The position numbers and the translations under genes were made by a program. DNA of 56,059 nt from contig JAGPCO010000038.1 of the NCBI GenBank assembly GCA_018058095.1, positions 1 to 56,059 on the forward strand, given 5' to 3'. Positions 27,054 to 48,300 of this stretch are shown in pieces. Every line of letters starts with the position of its first letter. The first letter of the stretch is position 1. Source of the stretch: Kofleriaceae bacterium (lineage in GTDB: Bacteria > Myxococcota_A > Polyangia > Haliangiales > Haliangiaceae). Below the pieces are notes generated by a model that worked only from the letters and a program-made list of their open reading frames with translations, was not told the DNA's origin and searched no databases.

Positions 27054-28300
27054 CGCCGCCGCGCCGGACTCGGTTCGCCCTCGTCGCCGCGCTGCTGGCC
27101 GCCGCGGCGGGCGCGGCCGGCTGCGGCGACGGCGGCGCCGCGGCGCCCGCGGCCCGGCCGGCGCCACCCCGGCCGATCCAGGCGCTGACCATGGCGCCGA
27201 CCCAGGCCCGGGTCACCGGCGACTACCTCGGGACGCTGCTGTCGCGCGCCAGCGTGCTGGTGTTGCCGCAGGTGTCGGGCTACGTCCGCAAGGTCCACGT
27301 CCGCCCGGGGCAGGTCGTCGCCGCCGGTGCGCCGCTGGTCGACATCGACGCGCGCGAGGAGGGGGCGGCCCTGGCCTCGGCCGCGGCCCAGGCCGACTCG
27401 GCCGGCGCCAGCCTGGCCCTGGCCGAGCAGTCGCGGGCCCGGGTCGAGGCCCTGTTCCGCGAAGGGCTGGCCACCGCGCAGGAGCTCGACCAGCGCCGGG
27501 CCGACGTCGCGGCCGCGCAGGCCGCGGTGCGGGCGGCGGGCGCCCAGGTCGCGCAGCGGCGCGTCGCCGTCGGCAACAACGTCGTGCGCGCGCCGGTGCC
27601 GGGGGTGATCGGCGAGGTCGCGACCCGGCTGGGCGACTTCGTCACCGCCTCGACCCGCCTCACCACCATCGCCGGCGAGGACGGCCTCGAGCTCACGGTC
27701 GGGATCCCGGCGGCGCGCGCGCGTGGGCTCGCGCTCGGCGCCCCGGTCGAGGTGCTGACCGATGACGACCGGCTCCTCCACCGCGGCACGGCGTTCTTCA
27801 TCGGCGCCGAGGCCGAGCCCCGGACCCAGCTGGTGGCGGTCAAGACCATGGTCCCGGCCGGCCTCGGGCTGCGGCCGGGCGAGATGGTGCGGGTCCGCGT
27901 CACCTACGCGGTCGAGCAGGCGCTGCAGGTCCCGGCGCTGGCGGTGGTCCGGCAGGGCGGGGCGGCCTTCCTGTTCGTCGTCGGCGAGCGGGCCGGGGCG
28001 CTGGTGGTCGAGCGGCGGCCGGTCCAGCTCGGCGCGCTCGGGCCCGACGGGTTCGTCGTCGCCGCCGGGCTCCACGCCGGCGAGCGGGTCGCGGTGTCCT
28101 CGATCCAGCAGCTGCGCGACGGCGCGGCGGTGGTGATCGAGCCTGCCCCCGGCGCGGGCTCCGGCTCCGGCTCCGGCGCGGGCTCCGGCTCCGGCGCGGG
28201 CGCCGGCTCCGGCGCGGGCGCCGGCTCCGGCGTGGGCTCCGGCTCCGGCGTGGGCTCCGGCGCGGGCGCCGGCTCCGGCGCGGGCTCCGGAGCGAAGTAG
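27041..28300 (+). CDS. RND efflux periplasmic adaptor lipoprotein
   Basis: 419 residues. The signal peptide ends in lipobox GAAGCGDG (Cys near residue 28). The barrel-sandwich hybrid shows as [22 protein letters not shown] and [22 protein letters not shown] around a coiled-coil hairpin with [19 protein letters not shown]. Beta-barrel and membrane-proximal parts follow. The last about 50 residues are only Gly, Ser, Ala and Val after EPAPGAG, an unusual tail for an adaptor, encoded by tandem DNA repeats. It links the pump to the TolC-like channel. Confidence 0.88.
28148..28294. repeat. GGCTCCGGCGCGGGC-type tandem repeat coding a Gly/Ser/Ala tail
   Basis: Imperfect units of GGCTCC, GGCGCG, GGCGTG and GGCGCC alternate over about 150 bp at the 3' end of the adaptor gene. 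The tract is likely to vary in length between strains by slippage. Confidence 0.8.
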
Positions 28301-35675: not shown

Positions 35676-35790
35676 GCGCACCCGACGAGGCGCCAGGCCG
35701 TCGCCGCCTCCGTCCCGGCGCACGCGCTCGCGTTCCTCGAGCGGCTCGTCGCCATGCGGGCTCGTCTGGCCGGAGCTTGACCGCCCGGAC

Positions 35791-35868
35791 GGGCACGGGC
35801 ACGGGCACGGGCACGGGCACGGGGCAGGTCGCTGCAAACGCGGCTGCGCCGCGTTTGTCAGCGTCCTG

Positions 35869-37751: not shown

Positions 37752-37787
37752 TCGCAGGGCTGCGCCATCGCCATCGCCCGAGCGATC

Positions 37788-37871
37788 GGGCACGGGCACG
37801 GGCACGGGCACGGGCATGGGCACGGGGCAGGTCGCTGCAAACGCGGCTGCGCCGCGTTTGTCAGCGTCCTG

Positions 37872-39412: not shown

Positions 39413-39490
39413 GCCCCCCACGCAGATCCAGGCAGTTGGCCCGAGGCTGGGGGCGACGTGGGCGGCACGAACCTCGCAGCAACGAACGCC

Positions 39491-41233
39491 ATGGCCAAGG
39501 AATCCGGCACCACGCTCAGCACCGACGACCTCGCCACCGTCTCCGGCGGAGGCGCGCTGGTCGAGCGGACCGACGGCGACCTGAGCGTGCAACTCGGGTT
39601 CGGTGAGGTGACCGGCACGACCGCGTCGGGTGGCCTGTTCCAGGGCACCTGGAGCCCGGCTGGCAACTCGCTGTTCACCAACAACCAGGTCCAGCTCAAC
39701 ATCCTGACGGGCGAGGGTGAGCTGGGCATGTCCGTCGACAAGGGCGGCTACATCGCCGGCGAGGGCAGCCTGCTCGGCGTCGAGGCCCAGACCACCCTGG
39801 GCGGCTGGCTGCCGGTCGGCGCCAGCCTCGAGCTGGGCACGGCCTCGGCCCAGGCCTCGATGGGCGAGGGTCTCGAGAGCAAGGTCACCGCGCTCGAGGC
39901 CGACGTCACGGTCGGCAGCATCTCGGGTGACCCCGACGCCGGCGTGGCGCCCAACGCCCTGGCGGTCGGGCTCGGCCTCAACCTGGCCCAGGCCAGCATG
40001 GAGAACGGCCAGCCGACCAGCCGGCTCGACGGCGACGCCCAGCTGACCGACGTCGACGGCGACGGCTGGGCCGACCTGCAGGCGTCGGTGACCGTGCCGC
40101 TGGGGAACCTGGCCTCGGTCGACATCAGCGTCGGCCTCAACACCGGCACCACCATCGACAACACCATCGCCGCCGGGCAGTGGGTCGGCGACCAGGCGGT
40201 CGGCGCGTACGACGCCGCCGTGGCGGGCGCCGCCGCGCTGGGCGACTCGATCGCCAGCGGCTGGGACGCGATGACCGCGGCCGACCCGGCCGACACCGGC
40301 GCGCCCAGCGCCATGGATGGCCTCAACCCGATGGGCGACTTCACCGGGTTCGACACCTCCGGGGTCGACGCCACCTCGAGCGACGTGTCGGCGACCCAGG
40401 ACGTGAGCGGCCTGCAGGACGACATGCAGGCCGACCAGCAGCTCAGCAGCGGCCTTGGCGGCCTGGGTGAGCTCGACGAGGCGGCGGCGAGCGTGCCGCA
40501 GGACAGCGGCTGGAGCGAACTGGCCGACTCTGACTTCGGCGACTCGTTCGACGGCAGCGCCGACGCCGGGGTCGACGCCGGGGCCGACGTTGGGGCCAGC
40601 GCCGACGCCGGGGCCAGCGCCGACGCGGGTGGCTGGGGCGACCTGGCCGACTCCGACTTCGGTAGCTCGTTCGACGCCGGCGCCGATGCAGGGGCCAGCA
40701 GCAGCGCCGACGCGGGTGGCTGGGGCGACCTGGCCGACTCCGACTTCGGCAGCTCGTTCGACAGCAGCAGCAGCAGCAGTGACAGCGGGACCGACAGCAG
40801 CTGGGGCGGCGCCGACGACAGCGGGGCCGACAGCAGCTGGGGCGGCGGCGGCGACAGCGGGACCGACAGCAGCTGGGGCGGCGCCGACGACAGCGGGGCC
40901 GACAGCAGCTGGGGCGGCGGCGGCGACAGCGGGACCGACAGCAGCTGGGGCGGCGGCGGCGACAGCGGGACCGACAGCAGCTGGGGCGGCGCCGACAGCA
41001 GCAGCAGCAGCGACAGCGGGACCGACAGCAGCTGGGGCGGCGCCGACAGCAGCAGCAGCAGCGACAGCGGGACCGACAGCAGCTGGGGCGGCAGCGACAC
41101 CAGCAGCAGCAGCAGCGACAGCGGGACCGACAGCAGCTGGGGCGGCAGCGACACCAGCAGCGACAGCAGCAGCGACACCAGCAACGATGGCGCGACCGGC
41201 CTCGGCAGCGACTCGTTCGGCGGGCCGCGCTGA
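39491..41233 (+). CDS. Large acidic Ser/Gly/Asp repeat protein with double-glycine-type leader
   Basis: 580 residues from the ATG at 39491; a GTG at 39458 would add 11. The N-terminus, with LSTDDLATVSGG at residues 9-20, looks like the leader of peptides exported by C39-peptidase ABC transporters, cleaved after Gly-Gly. Residues about 25-250 are beta-rich with Gly turns and one Asp loop (DVDGDGWADL) that could bind calcium. Three copies of a unit with LADSDFG then SFD follow. The last about 150 residues hold nine SSWGG units in Asp/Ser/Gly linkers. There is no membrane helix and almost no Lys or Arg in the repeats. It may be a secreted matrix or adhesive protein; this is inference. No transporter is in the window. 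Confidence 0.7.
   Translation: MAKESGTTLSTDDLATVSGGGALVERTDGDLSVQLGFGEVTGTTASGGLFQGTWSPAGNSLFTNNQVQLNILTGEGELGMSVDKGGYIAGEGSLLGVEAQTTLGGWLPVGASLELGTASAQASMGEGLESKVTALEADVTVGSISGDPDAGVAPNALAVGLGLNLAQASMENGQPTSRLDGDAQLTDVDGDGWADLQASVTVPLGNLASVDISVGLNTGTTIDNTIAAGQWVGDQAVGAYDAAVAGAAALGDSIASGWDAMTAADPADTGAPSAMDGLNPMGDFTGFDTSGVDATSSDVSATQDVSGLQDDMQADQQLSSGLGGLGELDEAAASVPQDSGWSELADSDFGDSFDGSADAGVDAGADVGASADAGASADAGGWGDLADSDFGSSFDAGADAGASSSADAGGWGDLADSDFGSSFDSSSSSSDSGTDSSWGGADDSGADSSWGGGGDSGTDSSWGGADDSGADSSWGGGGDSGTDSSWGGGGDSGTDSSWGGADSSSSSDSGTDSSWGGADSSSSSDSGTDSSWGGSDTSSSSSDSGTDSSWGGSDTSSDSSSDTSNDGATGLGSDSFGGPR
40770..41190. repeat. Coding tandem repeats (SSWGG units)
   Basis: Repeated GACAGCAGCTGGGGCGGC cores occur nine times, separated by GACAGCGGG-type or AGCAGC runs. 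Units of 36 bp alternate first, then longer units with serine runs. The region is prone to slippage and to assembly error. Confidence 0.85.
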
Positions 41234-42301: not shown

Positions 42302-43789
42302 TCAGTCGATGCCCTCGCTGATACACGAGGCGATGTCGAAGATCATGAAGGCCAGCACCTTCTCCTGCGGCGACAGCTGATCGCGCGGCGAGGTGCACCC
42401 ACCCGACGGGAACGACAGGTTGCCACCCGAGTCGTCGCCCGACGACACGTGGATGTCCGAGAACACGACGCGGCCGCAGCGCTGGGCCGGGGCGGCCTCG
42501 AGCGGCGTGGTGTACGACAGGTACTGCACCGACGGCGAGCCGTTGGCGGTCTGGTCCTTGTAGATCCAGCGGTCGGCCAGGCTCTCGTCGACGCCGGTCA
42601 CGGTGTGCTGGGCCGCGTCGATGTCGATCTTGCCCAGGGTGTTCGAGGCGCCGACGTTGAGCAGCCACTGCGCCAGGTCGCCACCACGGGCGAAGGTCTG
42701 GTTGATGTCGGCCTCGATGCTGTTGAGGTCGGGCTGGTCGTTGAAGGTCATCACCCCGTCCCACGGCGCCGCGTTGTCGAGGATCCAGTAGTTGTGCCAG
42801 TGCGACGCGAACACCCGGCCGCCGAGGTCGGCGTAGGCCTTCATCGCCGCCAGCGCGGCCGGGCCCTTGGTGCCCGGGTTCTGCGCGCCCTCGCACGACA
42901 GGAAGGCCACGTCGTAGGCCGACAGCGTGGCGGTGTCGCTCCACAGGGTCTGGGCGTCGGCGAAGGCGCCGCCGGCGTCGAAGTCGGGCGTGCCGCCCGA
43001 GCCGGCGTACAGGTGGACCCGGCCGGTGCCGCCGGCGGTGGTGAACTCGGCGTCGTCGAGGCCGACCTTGCGCAGCAGGCACTCGAGCGCGTCGGCGCCG
43101 CCGGTGGTGAGGGCCATCTGCGGGATGTCGCCCTCGCTCTGGTTGCGCGGAAGGCGGGTCGAGCCGGCGTCGAGCGGCGTGTCGACGCACTGGGCCACCG
43201 TCGGGATGGTGACCTGGCGCCGCCACTTGCCGACCTGCAGCACCAGCGGCACGTTGCTGGTGGCCGGCACGTTGGTCAGCGTGAACCGGCCGTCGGTGCC
43301 GGTCGTGGTCTGCACCAGCGGCGCGCCCGACAGCGGCGTGTTGCAGCGATCGCAGCTGGCGCCGGTCGGCAGCGGCCCGACCGCGGCGTTGGGGACGTAG
43401 ACGTTGACGTTGTACAGCGGCAGCGTGCCGTTGGGCGCGTAGACGATGCCCGACAGCGACGTGGTGCCGCCGTTGCTGCAGCTGACCTGCATACACTCGA
43501 GCCCGACGCACTGGTCCTCGGGGATGCAGCGGCCGTCGGGCGAGCAGCGCTCACTGTCGGCGCACTCCGAGCCGCCCTGGGTACAGAACGCCTGGCACGT
43601 GCCGTCCGGGCTGCAGTGAAAGCCGCTCGGGCAGGTCGCCGGGACGCCCGACGGGTCACACGCGATCATGCACTCCGGCGGTGGCGTGGCCGACGCACAC
43701 AGGTCGACGCCGCCGGAGCCGCCACCACAGGCGGCCAGCGCGGCGCCTCCGCTGATGACCAGGGCCAGGACCAGGCGGGGGTGGTTCAT
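42302..43789 (-). CDS. Cys-rich lipoprotein with carboxypeptidase-regulatory-like domain
   Basis: 495 residues. Lipobox ALAACGGG gives Cys near residue 21. Residues 30-100 hold a Cys-rich module (PPPECMIACDPSG, CPSGFHCSPDGTC, ECADSERCSPDGRC) shared with the neighbouring gene. A carboxypeptidase-regulatory-like beta domain follows (SLSGIVYAPNGTLPLYNVNVYVP to TDGRFTLTNVPA). The C-terminal about 280 residues contain VAFLSCEGAQN and GGRVFASHWHNYW, suggestive of a glutamine-amidotransferase-like or ThuA-like fold. Surface-exposed; function unknown. Confidence 0.78.
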   Translation of the reverse strand: MNHPRLVLALVISGGAALAACGGGSGGVDLCASATPPPECMIACDPSGVPATCPSGFHCSPDGTCQAFCTQGGSECADSERCSPDGRCIPEDQCVGLECMQVSCSNGGTTSLSGIVYAPNGTLPLYNVNVYVPNAAVGPLPTGASCDRCNTPLSGAPLVQTTTGTDGRFTLTNVPATSNVPLVLQVGKWRRQVTIPTVAQCVDTPLDAGSTRLPRNQSEGDIPQMALTTGGADALECLLRKVGLDDAEFTTAGGTGRVHLYAGSGGTPDFDAGGAFADAQTLWSDTATLSAYDVAFLSCEGAQNPGTKGPAALAAMKAYADLGGRVFASHWHNYWILDNAAPWDGVMTFNDQPDLNSIEADINQTFARGGDLAQWLLNVGASNTLGKIDIDAAQHTVTGVDESLADRWIYKDQTANGSPSVQYLSYTTPLEAAPAQRCGRVVFSDIHVSSGDDSGGNLSFPSGGCTSPRDQLSPQEKVLAFMIFDIASCISEGID

Positions 43790-43848
43790 GGGCTCGATTG
43801 TAGGCAGGGCCGGGGCGCCGGCGCCAGCTTCGATCCGCACCGGGCCCC

Positions 43849-45087
43849 TCAATCCACCACCGCTCCGCACGGGAACGAGGCGCTGACGGTCGGGTTGGTC
43901 GCGCCCTGCAGGGTGGTGCAGGCGGCGCCGATGAGGCGGATGCTGTTGGAGTCGACCAGCTCCCACTCCGAGCCGAAGGTCAGGGCGGTGCCATTGAGCG
44001 TGACCGTCCCGCTCGCGGCCTGGGCCGGGTTGACGTTGCCGTCGAGGTCCAGGTCACACGACAGGACCCCGCCGATGATGGCGTCGAACGCCGCCGTCAG
44101 CGACGCCGGGTTGTCGCCCAGGTAGAACGGCGCGGTGCCGGTGGCCGGGTCCTGGCCGGCGCCGGCGTTGGCCATCTGCTGCAGGTGGGCGTTGCCGACG
44201 TCGTTGCCGACGCTCAGCACGAACAGGCGGATGCCGGCCGTGAACGCGCGCTGGGCGGCGGCGACGGTGGCGGCGTTGGCCGCGGCCTGCTCGCTGGCGT
44301 TGCGCGGGTCGGCGTTCTGGCAGGTGTCGGGCAGGCCGTCGGTGGCCAGCACGATGATCGGCGGCGAGCCGGCCATCGGCGGGCTGGCGGCGAAGTCGGC
44401 GATGACCGCGTCGATCGACGGGCCGGTCGGGGTGTCCTCGATCGGGTTGCCGGCCAGGGCGCCGGTGATCGCCGCCAGGTTGTTCAGCGCGCGCGGGGTG
44501 GCGGTCAACGCCGGGCACGGCGTCAGGCCCTCCTGGATGCCGTCGCCGTTGTTGTCGGCCGACACGCCGGAGTAGGTGGTCGCGCCGAACACCACCTCGT
44601 CGGCCAGGTCGGTCACCACGCCGCCTGGCCCGACCAGGGCGGTGCGCACCGCCTGCCAGCGGTTGGTGCCGCCGAACGGGTCGGTCATCGAGCCGCTCTG
44701 GTCGATCAGCAGCTGCACCGTCGGGATGGTGCGGGTGGCGGTGAACTGCACGTCGGGGCAGTTGGCGTCGGGCCCGAGCGCGGCGTCGCCGTCGCCCGGC
44801 ACGCAGCGGCCGTCGCTGGTGCACACCTCGCCGTTGCCACACTCGCCGCCGGTCGCCGTGCACACCGCGTCGCACAGGCCGTCGGGGCTGCAGTGGAAGC
44901 CGGCCGGGCACGTGTTGCCGCCGGTGCCCGACGGGTCACACGCCTGGGCACACTCGGGCGGTGGCGAGGGTTGGTCACAGGGTCCCGCGGTCACCCGCGG
45001 GCTGCAGGCGCCGACCAGGGCGGCGGCCAGGGCGGCAGCCAGGGCGGCAGACCGGACCCAGAGGAGGCGGTTCGAGCATCGGCGCAT
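43849..45087 (-). CDS. VWA-domain Cys-rich lipoprotein
   Basis: 412 residues. Lipobox LVGACSP gives Cys near residue 28. It shares the N-terminal Cys module with the gene downstream (PPPECAQACDPSG, CPAGFHCSPDGLC). The VWA domain starts with TVQLLIDQSGSMTD, an intact DxSxS metal site, and includes VLATDGLPDTC. The repeated module and the 59-bp spacing suggest a pair of paralogous N-termini with different effector domains. The ATG at 45087 follows GGGGAG. Confidence 0.82.
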   Translation of the reverse strand: MRRCSNRLLWVRSAALAAALAAALVGACSPRVTAGPCDQPSPPPECAQACDPSGTGGNTCPAGFHCSPDGLCDAVCTATGGECGNGEVCTSDGRCVPGDGDAALGPDANCPDVQFTATRTIPTVQLLIDQSGSMTDPFGGTNRWQAVRTALVGPGGVVTDLADEVVFGATTYSGVSADNNGDGIQEGLTPCPALTATPRALNNLAAITGALAGNPIEDTPTGPSIDAVIADFAASPPMAGSPPIIVLATDGLPDTCQNADPRNASEQAAANAATVAAAQRAFTAGIRLFVLSVGNDVGNAHLQQMANAGAGQDPATGTAPFYLGDNPASLTAAFDAIIGGVLSCDLDLDGNVNPAQAASGTVTLNGTALTFGSEWELVDSNSIRLIGAACTTLQGATNPTVSASFPCGAVVD

Positions 45088-45374
45088 GGGCTCCCCGGGA
45101 GCAAAGCCTGGGCCGGCGGTGGGGGCGCTGGGCGAGCCGGCCTCAGCGGTGGGCCAAGGTGGGACCCGGCCGGCGCCCGCCGGCGCCGGGCCGGCGAAGT
45201 CCACCGAAAGACTCACCGGCCAGGCCGCCGACCTGGCCCACTCGCCGGCGGAGTGGCCCGCGCACCTGCCAACCGCGGTGGCGGGGGCACGACCGCGCAG
45301 CCCGGGTCGGTTGTCCCCAGGGAGTCGCCGGCGTCGACCGCGGGTCGCACCTCGGGTTGGTCGCCTGGGGCGAC

Positions 45375-48300
45375 CTACTCGATGGTGACCCGGTCGCCGC
45401 CGGAGCGGCCGAAGGTCTCCGGCATGTACATCTCCTCGGCCTTGGCCGGCGGCACCACGAACCGGCCCGGGGTGGTGGCGCGGGTCACGTAGGTGTACTC
45501 GTGGACGCCCTCCCACAGCAGCGAGGCGAACGCCTCGACCCGCTCGTCGCGCAGGTTCTGGTGCTCGTACCAGGTGCCGAGCCACCACCAGTAGGCGCCA
45601 GCGCTGGCCTGGGCCTGCTTGTCCTGCGGGATGCTGCCGGTCACCGCCAGCGCCGGATTCATCACCTCGAGCCCGGCCGGCAGCGGGTCGACCAGCGCGA
45701 CGTGGTAGCGCCGGTTCTCCGCCACCATGGTCAGGCGCACGCGGACCCGGGCCCCGGCCTTGATCTTCCAGCTGCCGTCGGCCTGGCGCACCACGTCGCC
45801 CTTGTCGTCGACGGCCTCGTACCGGCGCTCGACCACGAAGCCGTAGTCGGCGGCCGGGACCTTGAGGTCGGCCGGGGCGTAGGTCATGCCGACCCGGTAG
45901 TACAGCCGGCCCTTGCCGTCCTTCTGCAGGACCAGATCTCCTCGGCCCGGCGTCTTGCCGCGGCCGAGCTGGTCGGCGATCCACGCCATCGGCACGTCGA
46001 GCTGGAAGCGGTCGGTCTGGCGGCCGCGGAAGGTGTGCTCGCCGGCGTAGCCATCGCCGAGCCAGACCCGGGCGACGAAGTCGGGCGTGACCTTCTCGTA
46101 GGTCTGGAAGTAGCGATCGAGCGCGAGCAGGATGAGCGCGTTGTCCTGGGTGTTGAGCCAGCGCCCCGCCTTCTTGTGGGCGAGCAGGCCGGTCACCAGC
46201 TTGGGGATCAGATCGTGCTGCTCGGCCTCCTGGATGAGCGACTCGAGGATGACGCCGTCGGCGCGACGGTCGGACGCCAGCAGCAGGTGGCCGCCGTCGC
46301 GGTAGCTGGTGGTGAAGTTGGCGGCGCCGGCGGTCTCGCTGACCCGGTTGTTCAGGTGCGCCAGCAGGTCGCGTCGCTCGCCGGCGGCGGCGGCCTGGCC
46401 GGCCAGGGTGCCGAGCAGCCAGCCGTCGGCCTCGATCGGCAGCTTGCTGGCGCCGCCGGCGCTGGCCAGCAGGCGCTGCGCCTTGGCCACGTCGACGTCG
46501 CCGGCCAGCTTGCGCACGTACAGCGCGTAGCTGGAGATGACCCGGCGGACCTCCTCGCCGTAGTAGCCCGGGTAGTGCCGCTCGATGTCGCGCAGGTAGG
46601 CCAGCGCGCGCGTGAGCATGTCCTTGTCGACCTGGTAGCCCTTGGCCTTGGCCCGGACCAGCGCGCCGGTCACGTGAACGCTCAGGTACGGCCAGGTCTC
46701 GCGCCCGCGCTCCCAGATCGGGAAGCCGCCGTCGGGGTTCTGCATGTTCTCGAGGCGTTCGAGGTCCTCGGCGACCCGGGCCTCGAGCGCGGCCGGGCTG
46801 GGCATGTCGGCCACCGCGAACGCGCTGAGCACGTCGCGCAGGGCGGCGATGGCCAGCACCCGCGACGCGCGCTGCTCGGAGCACTCGAAGCGGTAGCTGA
46901 CCAGGTACAGCATGGCGTCGGTCAGCGCCTGCAGGTTGGTCGACGCGGTGGTGATCTCGAGGCCGCCGAACTGCTTGACCACGCCGAGCCCGGCCCCGGC
47001 GCCGCCGCCGGCCGAGCCGGGCAGGGCGATGGGCTGGCGCACCGCGCCGGCGTCGATCACGCCGTAGGTGGCGAACGCCTCGGTGGTGGCCGGGGTCCAC
47101 ACCGGCAGCGCCAGCTCGGCCGCGTCGCTGGCGCCGCCGGTGGTGGCGGCGCCGACGATCTGGAACCGGGCGGTGCCGGCCAGCTCGGCCGCGGCCGGGA
47201 ACTGGACCTCGACCCGATCGTTGGCCGGCACCGTCAGCTCGCGCCCGGCCCCGTCGGTGATGGCCGCGTTGCTGGCGCGCACGCCGACCCGCACGGTCAT
47301 GGGCGCGTCGGTCTGGTTCTGCACCACGACCGGCAAGCGGAAGGTGTCGCCGAAGTTGAGGAAGCGCGGCGGCGACGGCCGCACCATCAGCGGCAGGCGC
47401 GCGGTGATCGTGCTCTCGCCCTTGCCGAACTGCTTGGCGCCGGCCGCGGCCAGCGCGACCACCCGGTACCGGGTCAGGTTGTCGGGCATCTTGACGCTGA
47501 GCGTCGCCTTGCCGCTGGCGTCGGTGATCATGGCGTCGGCGAACGCCGCCAGCGGATCGAAGTTGGTGCGGACGGCGATCGGGCCCTGGGCTGGCGCGCT
47601 GCCGGTGACCGGGCTGTTCTTCGTCGTGGTGACGTCGGTCGGGGCGGCCGCCGCCGGCGACGGAGGCGGCATCGCCCCGCCGTCGGCCATCGGCATCATC
47701 TCGGCCCGGGCCCGCCCGGGCGCCCCGCCGCCGGCGCCGGTGGCGTCGGCCAGCTGGTCGGCGGCCGGCTGGGCCAGCTTGACGAAGCTGCGCAGGTAGT
47801 GGTCCGACGTGCCGGCGTCGCGCTGCGGGTAGAAGCTGCCGACCGGGTTGGCGAACTGGAAGCCGGTCAGCGACAGCACCGCCTCGTCGACGACCATCAG
47901 CGCGACCTCGGCGCCGGCGACCGGCTGGCCGCGGGCGTCGCGCACGCGCACCGCGAAGCCGGCCTGGTCACCCGGGCCGACCTTCTTCGCCGCCGGGGTG
48001 ACCTCGACGGCCAGGGTCCGGCTGCGCGGCGGCACGTCGAGGTTGATCGAGCCGACCGCGTAGGCCGGCCGCTTGGGCAGGCGCGGGTCGGGCTTGCCTT
48101 GATCGTCGACGCGGGCGGCCTGCCCGACCAGGTCGACCTGGACCACCAGGTTGGGCACGTGGGCCTCGGCGATCGGCACCCGGATGGCCAGGGTCGGGCC
48201 GCTCAGGCTGACCCGCTGGGTCTCGAGGATGCCGGACCGGCGCCAGCTCACCACGCCCTCGGCCGGCGCGAACGGGGCCTGGATGAGCAACTCGGCCACG

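Follow-up and report, generated by a model that had tools for sequence, protein, structure and literature searches.

A large acidic repeat protein with a double-glycine leader as a probable cargo of C39-peptidase exporters in a Kofleriaceae bacterium

The gene at positions 39491-41233 encodes an acidic, repetitive protein that starts with a double-glycine (GG) leader of the kind read by C39 peptidase domains. It was found in a window (the whole stretch of DNA that was analyzed) of 56,059 nucleotides from contig JAGPCO010000038.1 of a Kofleriaceae bacterium. As the best explanation we regard it as probable that the gene encodes a structural-type protein, which is switched on via sigma54, has its GG leader cut by a C39 exporter and likely plays a role in a matrix or coat. 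The initial annotation had suggested a possible new class of large GG-leader exported matrix protein; the export part of this claim is well supported by the leader, the exporters and a shared promoter-like element, whereas the matrix part is only plausible.

Results

Gene, start codon and product

The forward-strand frame of the gene shows a third-position GC of 0.93-0.99 along its whole length, hence it is regarded as the coding one throughout, including the repeat tail, which is open in other frames too. The 580-aa precursor contains 95 Asp and Glu residues, 6 Lys and Arg residues and no Cys, and for the predicted mature part of 560 residues a mass of 53.5 kDa was computed (pI 4.05). An in-frame GTG at 39458 would extend the leader to 31 aa. 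The ATG at 39491 is the better start, because the promoter-like element at 39463-39478 lies inside the GTG extension. The following features were assigned, all on the forward strand:

39463..39478, forward strand: sigma54-like -24/-12 element CGGCACG-AACC-TCGCA, starting at -28 from the ATG (sequence match)
39491..41233, forward strand: complete gene of the large GG-leader protein, 580 aa (translation, third-position GC)
39491..39550, forward strand: double-glycine leader MAKESGTTLSTDDLATVSGG with predicted C39 cleavage after residue 20 (leader models, consensus from PMC6959990)
39551..40180, forward strand: N-terminal Gly-rich, probably beta-rich domain, residues 21-230 (weak similarity to the domain of the paralogue C129)
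40181..40507, forward strand: Ala/Asp-rich linker, residues 231-339 (translation)
40508..40769, forward strand: three degenerate GWxxLADSDFGxSFD repeats with Ala/Asp-rich spacers between them (translation; TRF arrays in 40559-40626)
40770..41161, forward strand: acidic Ser/Gly/Asp/Trp tail with nine DSG-x-DSSWGG units (TRF arrays of 36 and 51 bp)

The SSWGG motif occurs nine times between residues 436 and 552 with a spacing of 12-18 residues, corresponding to TRF arrays at 40762-41161, and the acidic, repetitive protein of about 580 residues that had been annotated initially was thus borne out. Strands in the N-terminal domain, which is probably beta-rich, appear only in a low-confidence AlphaFold model of this domain alone (pLDDT 38), and an alignment of three sequences as input gave a pLDDT of 32. 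Searches against Pfam and NCBIfam, including the NHLP/Nif11 precursor families, returned no match up to E = 1, a PDB profile search yielded nothing significant, and neither a toxin or enzyme domain (domain searches) nor RTX nonapeptides of the form GGxGxDxUx were found in the protein. A hydrophobic Sec/Tat-type signal is absent, the best 15-residue mean hydropathy within the N-terminal 75 residues being 0.63.

The neighboring genes code for a lysine-2,3-aminomutase-like protein (KamA) and a DsbA-like protein, and no exporter gene adjoins. A partnership of KamA with a GG peptide was considered and rejected, since KamA is kept at 83-86% in 11 genomes of the same genus, in which the available upstream stretch carries no GG-leader gene. 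Hence, the gene at 39491-41233 looks like a species-specific arrival.

The genome (7.57 Mb in 227 contigs, 97% complete, 2% contamination) is probably a MAG. The contigs in question differ little in GC content (0.72-0.77), which makes mixing of contigs unlikely but possible, and repeats may be mis-assembled. Other features in the window are an array of an 18-bp GC-rich repeat at 28149-28290 (6.5 copies, 92% matches), the same hexanucleotide (ACGGGC/CGGGCA) in six to seven copies at two sites separated by 2 kb (35789-35823 and 37787-37826), and two neighboring reverse-strand genes at 42302-43966 and 43849-47100. Their products have a Cys-rich N-terminal segment in common (CDPSG...TCPxGFHCSPDGxC...CTxxGxECxxxExCxxDGRCxP), which in one of them is followed by a VWA-like stretch.

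The double-glycine leader

C39 peptidase domains read the leaders of substrates of peptidase-containing ABC transporters (PCATs) by the consensus L(-12)xxxE(-8)L(-7)xxxxGG (PMC6959990). The first 20 residues, MAKESGTTLSTDDLATVSGG, display L-12, D-8, L-7, V-4, G-2 and G-1, i.e. the PCAT-substrate pattern of L-12, an acidic residue at -8, L-7, V/I/M-4 and GG. To score it, a matrix and an HMM were used that had been trained only on leaders from other genomes, mostly of short peptides encoded beside related exporters. With 26.5 bits, MAKESGTTLSTDDLATVSGG obtained the best matrix score of 310,475 ORF windows in the genome, a value not reached by any of 50,000 shuffled versions of the N-terminus. 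The HMM, built from relatives only and run over all six frames of the genome, also ranked it first (E = 0.0017). The resemblance is beyond chance, and the bacteriocin-type GG leader that had been noticed initially in these residues is real. A leader pattern at the DNA level gave 20 matches versus 5 in the reversed control; most of these were dropped after reading the frames, being internal or antisense.

C39 exporters encoded in the genome

The initial annotation had suggested looking for C39-peptidase ABC transporters elsewhere in the genome, where five C39 matches were found. Two of them belong to complete exporters with C39, transmembrane and ATPase domains, in the loci C27 and C92 (L009:8073-10508 and L010:1279-4734), and both keep the catalytic Cys (motif DCG), His and Asp. 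Their C39 domains align end to end with the LahT double-glycine protease (6MPZ) at E of about 1e-24. In both loci an HlyD-type protein adjoins the exporter and a regulator combining FHA, Sigma54_activat and HTH_8 (Fis-type HTH) domains is encoded; a TolC-type protein is present in the C92 locus. The C27 locus also contains two large GG-leader genes, with 181 and 371 residues following GG in their products. In a further C39-ABC protein, C152 (L011:7981-11559), the catalytic Cys is replaced (GAEAAACL versus SDCGAACL), and it looks like the non-cutting type with a degenerate C39-like domain.

A family of large GG-leader proteins

A search for other ORFs with this leader, likewise proposed at the outset, uncovered at least six further large repetitive ones in the same genome, so that the family comprises at least seven members including the 580-aa protein. 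Apart from the pair in the C27 locus, the cargos measure 226, 491, about at least 497 and at least 604 residues after GG. The members encoded outside the C27 locus are:

C129: 512 aa, with a GDYAGGGDSGGG tail
C146 (L180:7004-8967): at least 604 residues after GG, cut by the contig end, with a GFGDIGGGDG tail
C171 (L039:8159-9739): about at least 497 residues after GG, with a run of N in the repeat region
C117: 260 aa, Asp-rich

C129 and C146 have homologous N-terminal domains, whose pairwise similarity was reached by 0 of 500 shuffles. Similarity between the 580-aa protein and the C129 domain is weak (1 of 500 shuffles reached the score), and an EGSLL motif is common to all three proteins in the alignment. 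Paralogues within the genome keep the GG leader. No orthologue of the 580-aa protein was found in the genomes searched, which included a GTDB-wide scan, and the N-terminal domains of the large proteins were not found in the at least 55 related genomes searched; two apparent matches were taken as spurious, with FG-GAP-like coding on the other strand in G001 and a stop in G023.

The genome also harbors smaller GG-leader genes, namely two nearly identical ones in tandem at C85 (L183:567-1229; RRSPLPLSTTRLGQVAGGNSEWQWYWTGSTWAYGDP...) and two very short ones at C223 (L040:7701-8030) with 11 and 13 aa after GG.

A sigma54-like element upstream of the leader genes

The -24/-12 consensus of sigma54 (RpoN) promoters is close to TGGCACG-N4-TTGCW. 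The sequence CGGCACGAACCTCGCA at -28 of the 580-aa protein gene is a near match and hence a candidate promoter. The consensus was chosen with the activators of the exporter loci and this upstream region in view, and the other genes served as the test. Among the leader genes of this genome the element reads roughly [CT]GGCACG-N4-nnGC[AT]. Its start lies at precisely -28 in five of the eight leader genes (the 580-aa protein gene, C129, C171, C223 and C146, the last with the form GGGCAC), at -34 and -44 upstream of the two C27 genes and at -39 in C117. The string [CTG]GGCAC at -28 was thus present in 5/8 leader genes versus 17/3087 control ATGs, and YGGCACG between -50 and -20 in 7/8 versus 61/3087, with most of the eight leader genes included among the controls. 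The exact promoter pattern is not enriched genome-wide (119 occurrences versus 226 in the reversed control), hence only its position beside GG-leader genes counts.

Short-peptide genes of relatives are preceded by TGGCACG-N4-nTGCT-like elements as well, mostly at -37 to -97. A promoter score of at least 19 was obtained for 21 of 80 such genes, a set that leaves the two C27 genes of this genome out of 82 rows, versus 3.3% of control gene starts. From the elements we infer that they act as promoters of the leader genes. From the position at -28 a transcript start at about -2 is expected, and thereby a leaderless mRNA. A Shine-Dalgarno sequence is present in the two leader genes with the longest spacing and absent in the five with the -28 element, and transcripts starting almost at the ATG would fit this absence.

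Short-peptide systems in related genomes

When 34 other genomes of the order and the surroundings of related exporters were analyzed, 80 of 82 distinct GG-leader ORFs had 11-97 residues after GG, the two exceptions looking unrelated, and no large GG-leader cargo was found in these 34 genomes. In two relatives a leader-like site is followed by 215 and 232 residues; as a membrane segment adjoins the site, they were set aside as unrelated. Large stop-to-stop frames with leaders were discarded, the actual cargos having only 41-93 residues. The small peptides of the order (MSKPxxFxxIDPxxLxxVxGG type) follow the same leader logic as the large proteins described here; the leader of C27a, MTKPAPPRFPTIAGLELDRVIGG, closely resembles theirs (MSKPAPARFAAIDPAALAAVAGG), and the exporters are 56-60% identical in the closest relatives. 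The difference lies in cargo size, 11-97 aa in the relatives versus 181 to more than 604 aa here. In the simplest history, the ancestral system would have served short peptides, and the large cargos would have been added in this lineage. A second leader type, KLSLxRETLxPLxxxELxxVxGG, occurs in the genus. It belongs to tandem short precursors of the relatives G002 and G009 (L046, L083, L084), a kind also found in some RiPP clusters.

Discussion

Taken together, the data can be combined into the following scheme. An FHA-type sigma54 activator would turn on the scattered genes via their -24/-12 promoters, and the common leader would dock on the C39 domain of a PCAT encoded in locus C27 or C92. 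After a cut behind GG20 the unfolded cargo would be threaded out via HlyD and a channel of the TolC type. The cargos of this lineage would have grown to between about 180 and more than 600 residues and would typically combine a Gly-rich, probably beta-rich domain with an acidic low-complexity repeat tail. For the 580-aa protein we infer cleavage by C39 after GG20 and export; since its gene is not located beside an exporter, protein and exporter are paired by leader and promoter only. A role in a matrix or surface coat is speculative and is suggested for the 580-aa protein by its acidic character, the Gly/Ser/Asp repeats, the periodic Trp, the lack of Cys and the restriction to this species. 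Against the preferred explanation stand the distance of the gene from an exporter, the mature mass of 53.5 kDa, given the limit of about 10 kDa reported for active C39 PCATs, the leaderless mRNA that the -28 element would need, the lack of an orthologue among the genomes searched and the low confidence of the structure models.

Other readings of the gene have to be weighed. Bacteriocins classically have GG leaders and C39 exporters, and cargos that vary between species would fit conflict molecules, hence the same C39 route might deliver a large antibacterial or predation effector instead of a matrix protein. We judge this unlikely, given that the domain searches found no toxin or enzyme domain, the C-terminal part is a low-complexity repeat and no immunity gene is evident beside 39491-41233. 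The regular repeats of 12-18 residues, rich in Ser, Thr and Asp, could also belong to a giant RiPP-like precursor, whose DSG-x-DSSWGG units would subsequently be processed to many small peptides, perhaps ester- or amide-linked. The GG-leader products of relatives are normally short peptides, and one of them matches a putative ATP-grasp target RiPP family, although below threshold (18.5 bits versus a cut-off of 32). Such a multi-core precursor appears improbable, because a modification enzyme of that kind was not seen beside the gene, the protein is free of Cys, its internal GG sites are devoid of the L-12/L-7 leader pattern, and the repeats differ among the paralogues.

The two remaining readings deny the leader its function. 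Large cargos with a C-terminal signal are typical of CLD-type exporters (PMC8277102), and the C152 ABC protein with its replaced catalytic Cys could serve an ordinary type 1 (RTX/CLD) cargo in which the GG is incidental. This route is quite improbable, considering the missing RTX nonapeptides, an N-terminal leader that is the best of the genome and common to otherwise different large proteins, and the two large GG-leader proteins encoded within an active-C39 exporter locus. That the segment is a chance resemblance in a cytoplasmic protein is hardly credible: the motif is short and a single protein could match it, but the shuffling test and the independent HMM argue against such a coincidence, and at least six other large proteins have such leaders together with a common upstream element. 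Hence, export of a structural-type protein through a C39 exporter remains the preferred reading.

Several known systems resemble the one proposed. The substrates of PCATs, also named AMS, such as in the pairs CtA-PCAT1, LahA-LahT and colicin V-CvaB, have the same leader pattern of L-12, an acidic residue at -8, L-7, V-4 and GG; the exporter C39 domain found here matches LahT, and the colicin V leader (MRTLTLNELDSVSGG, PMC10231218) has the same VSGG end as that of the 580-aa protein. Unlike those cargos of about 10 kDa at most, the 580-aa protein is large, repetitive and encoded away from the exporter. For active C39 PCATs an upper substrate limit of about 10 kDa has been reported, and the signals of large type 1 cargos are C-terminal and stay uncleaved (PMC8277102). 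With its mature mass the predicted cargo breaks the small-peptide rule of such leaders, as had been pointed out in the initial annotation. Judged by sequence, the protein would be a variant of the PCAT substrates, which agrees with them in leader and exporter and departs from them in size and in its distance from the exporter gene. Cyanobacterial GG-leader precursors span 28-164 aa (PMC3140520). In Synechococcus elongatus the extracellular GG-leader proteins EbfG1-4 depend on the C39 exporter PteB and are connected to the matrix, and EbfG1-3 are prone to amyloid formation (PMC4997328, PMC9981879). Their precursors of 9-10 kDa (PMC4997328) differ in size from the 580-aa protein, to which they are likened by GG leader and exporter. 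The best NCBIfam match of the C27 exporter is NHLM_micro_ABC1 from the NHLM/NHLP clusters (TIGR03796), at a score below the curated cut-off (607 versus 853 bits); it likewise has an HlyD partner. No published GG-leader cargo of this size was found in a search that lay mostly outside the subscription literature.

In a wider sense, the sigma54-controlled GG-leader/PCAT system of this lineage may have moved from small peptides to diversified low-complexity proteins of 20-60 kDa, which would be exported via C39 and form a species-specific matrix or coat; we give this broader view an even chance. Large GG-leader proteins of this kind would escape searches aimed at short RiPP-type precursors. If the explanation is true, the size rule of about 10 kDa is not a limit of the C39 machine, and cleavable N-terminal leaders can send proteins of 50-60 kDa straight out of a Gram-negative cell, which would bear on secretion engineering. 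Moreover, a candidate surface or matrix proteome would become predictable from the combination of leader and promoter.
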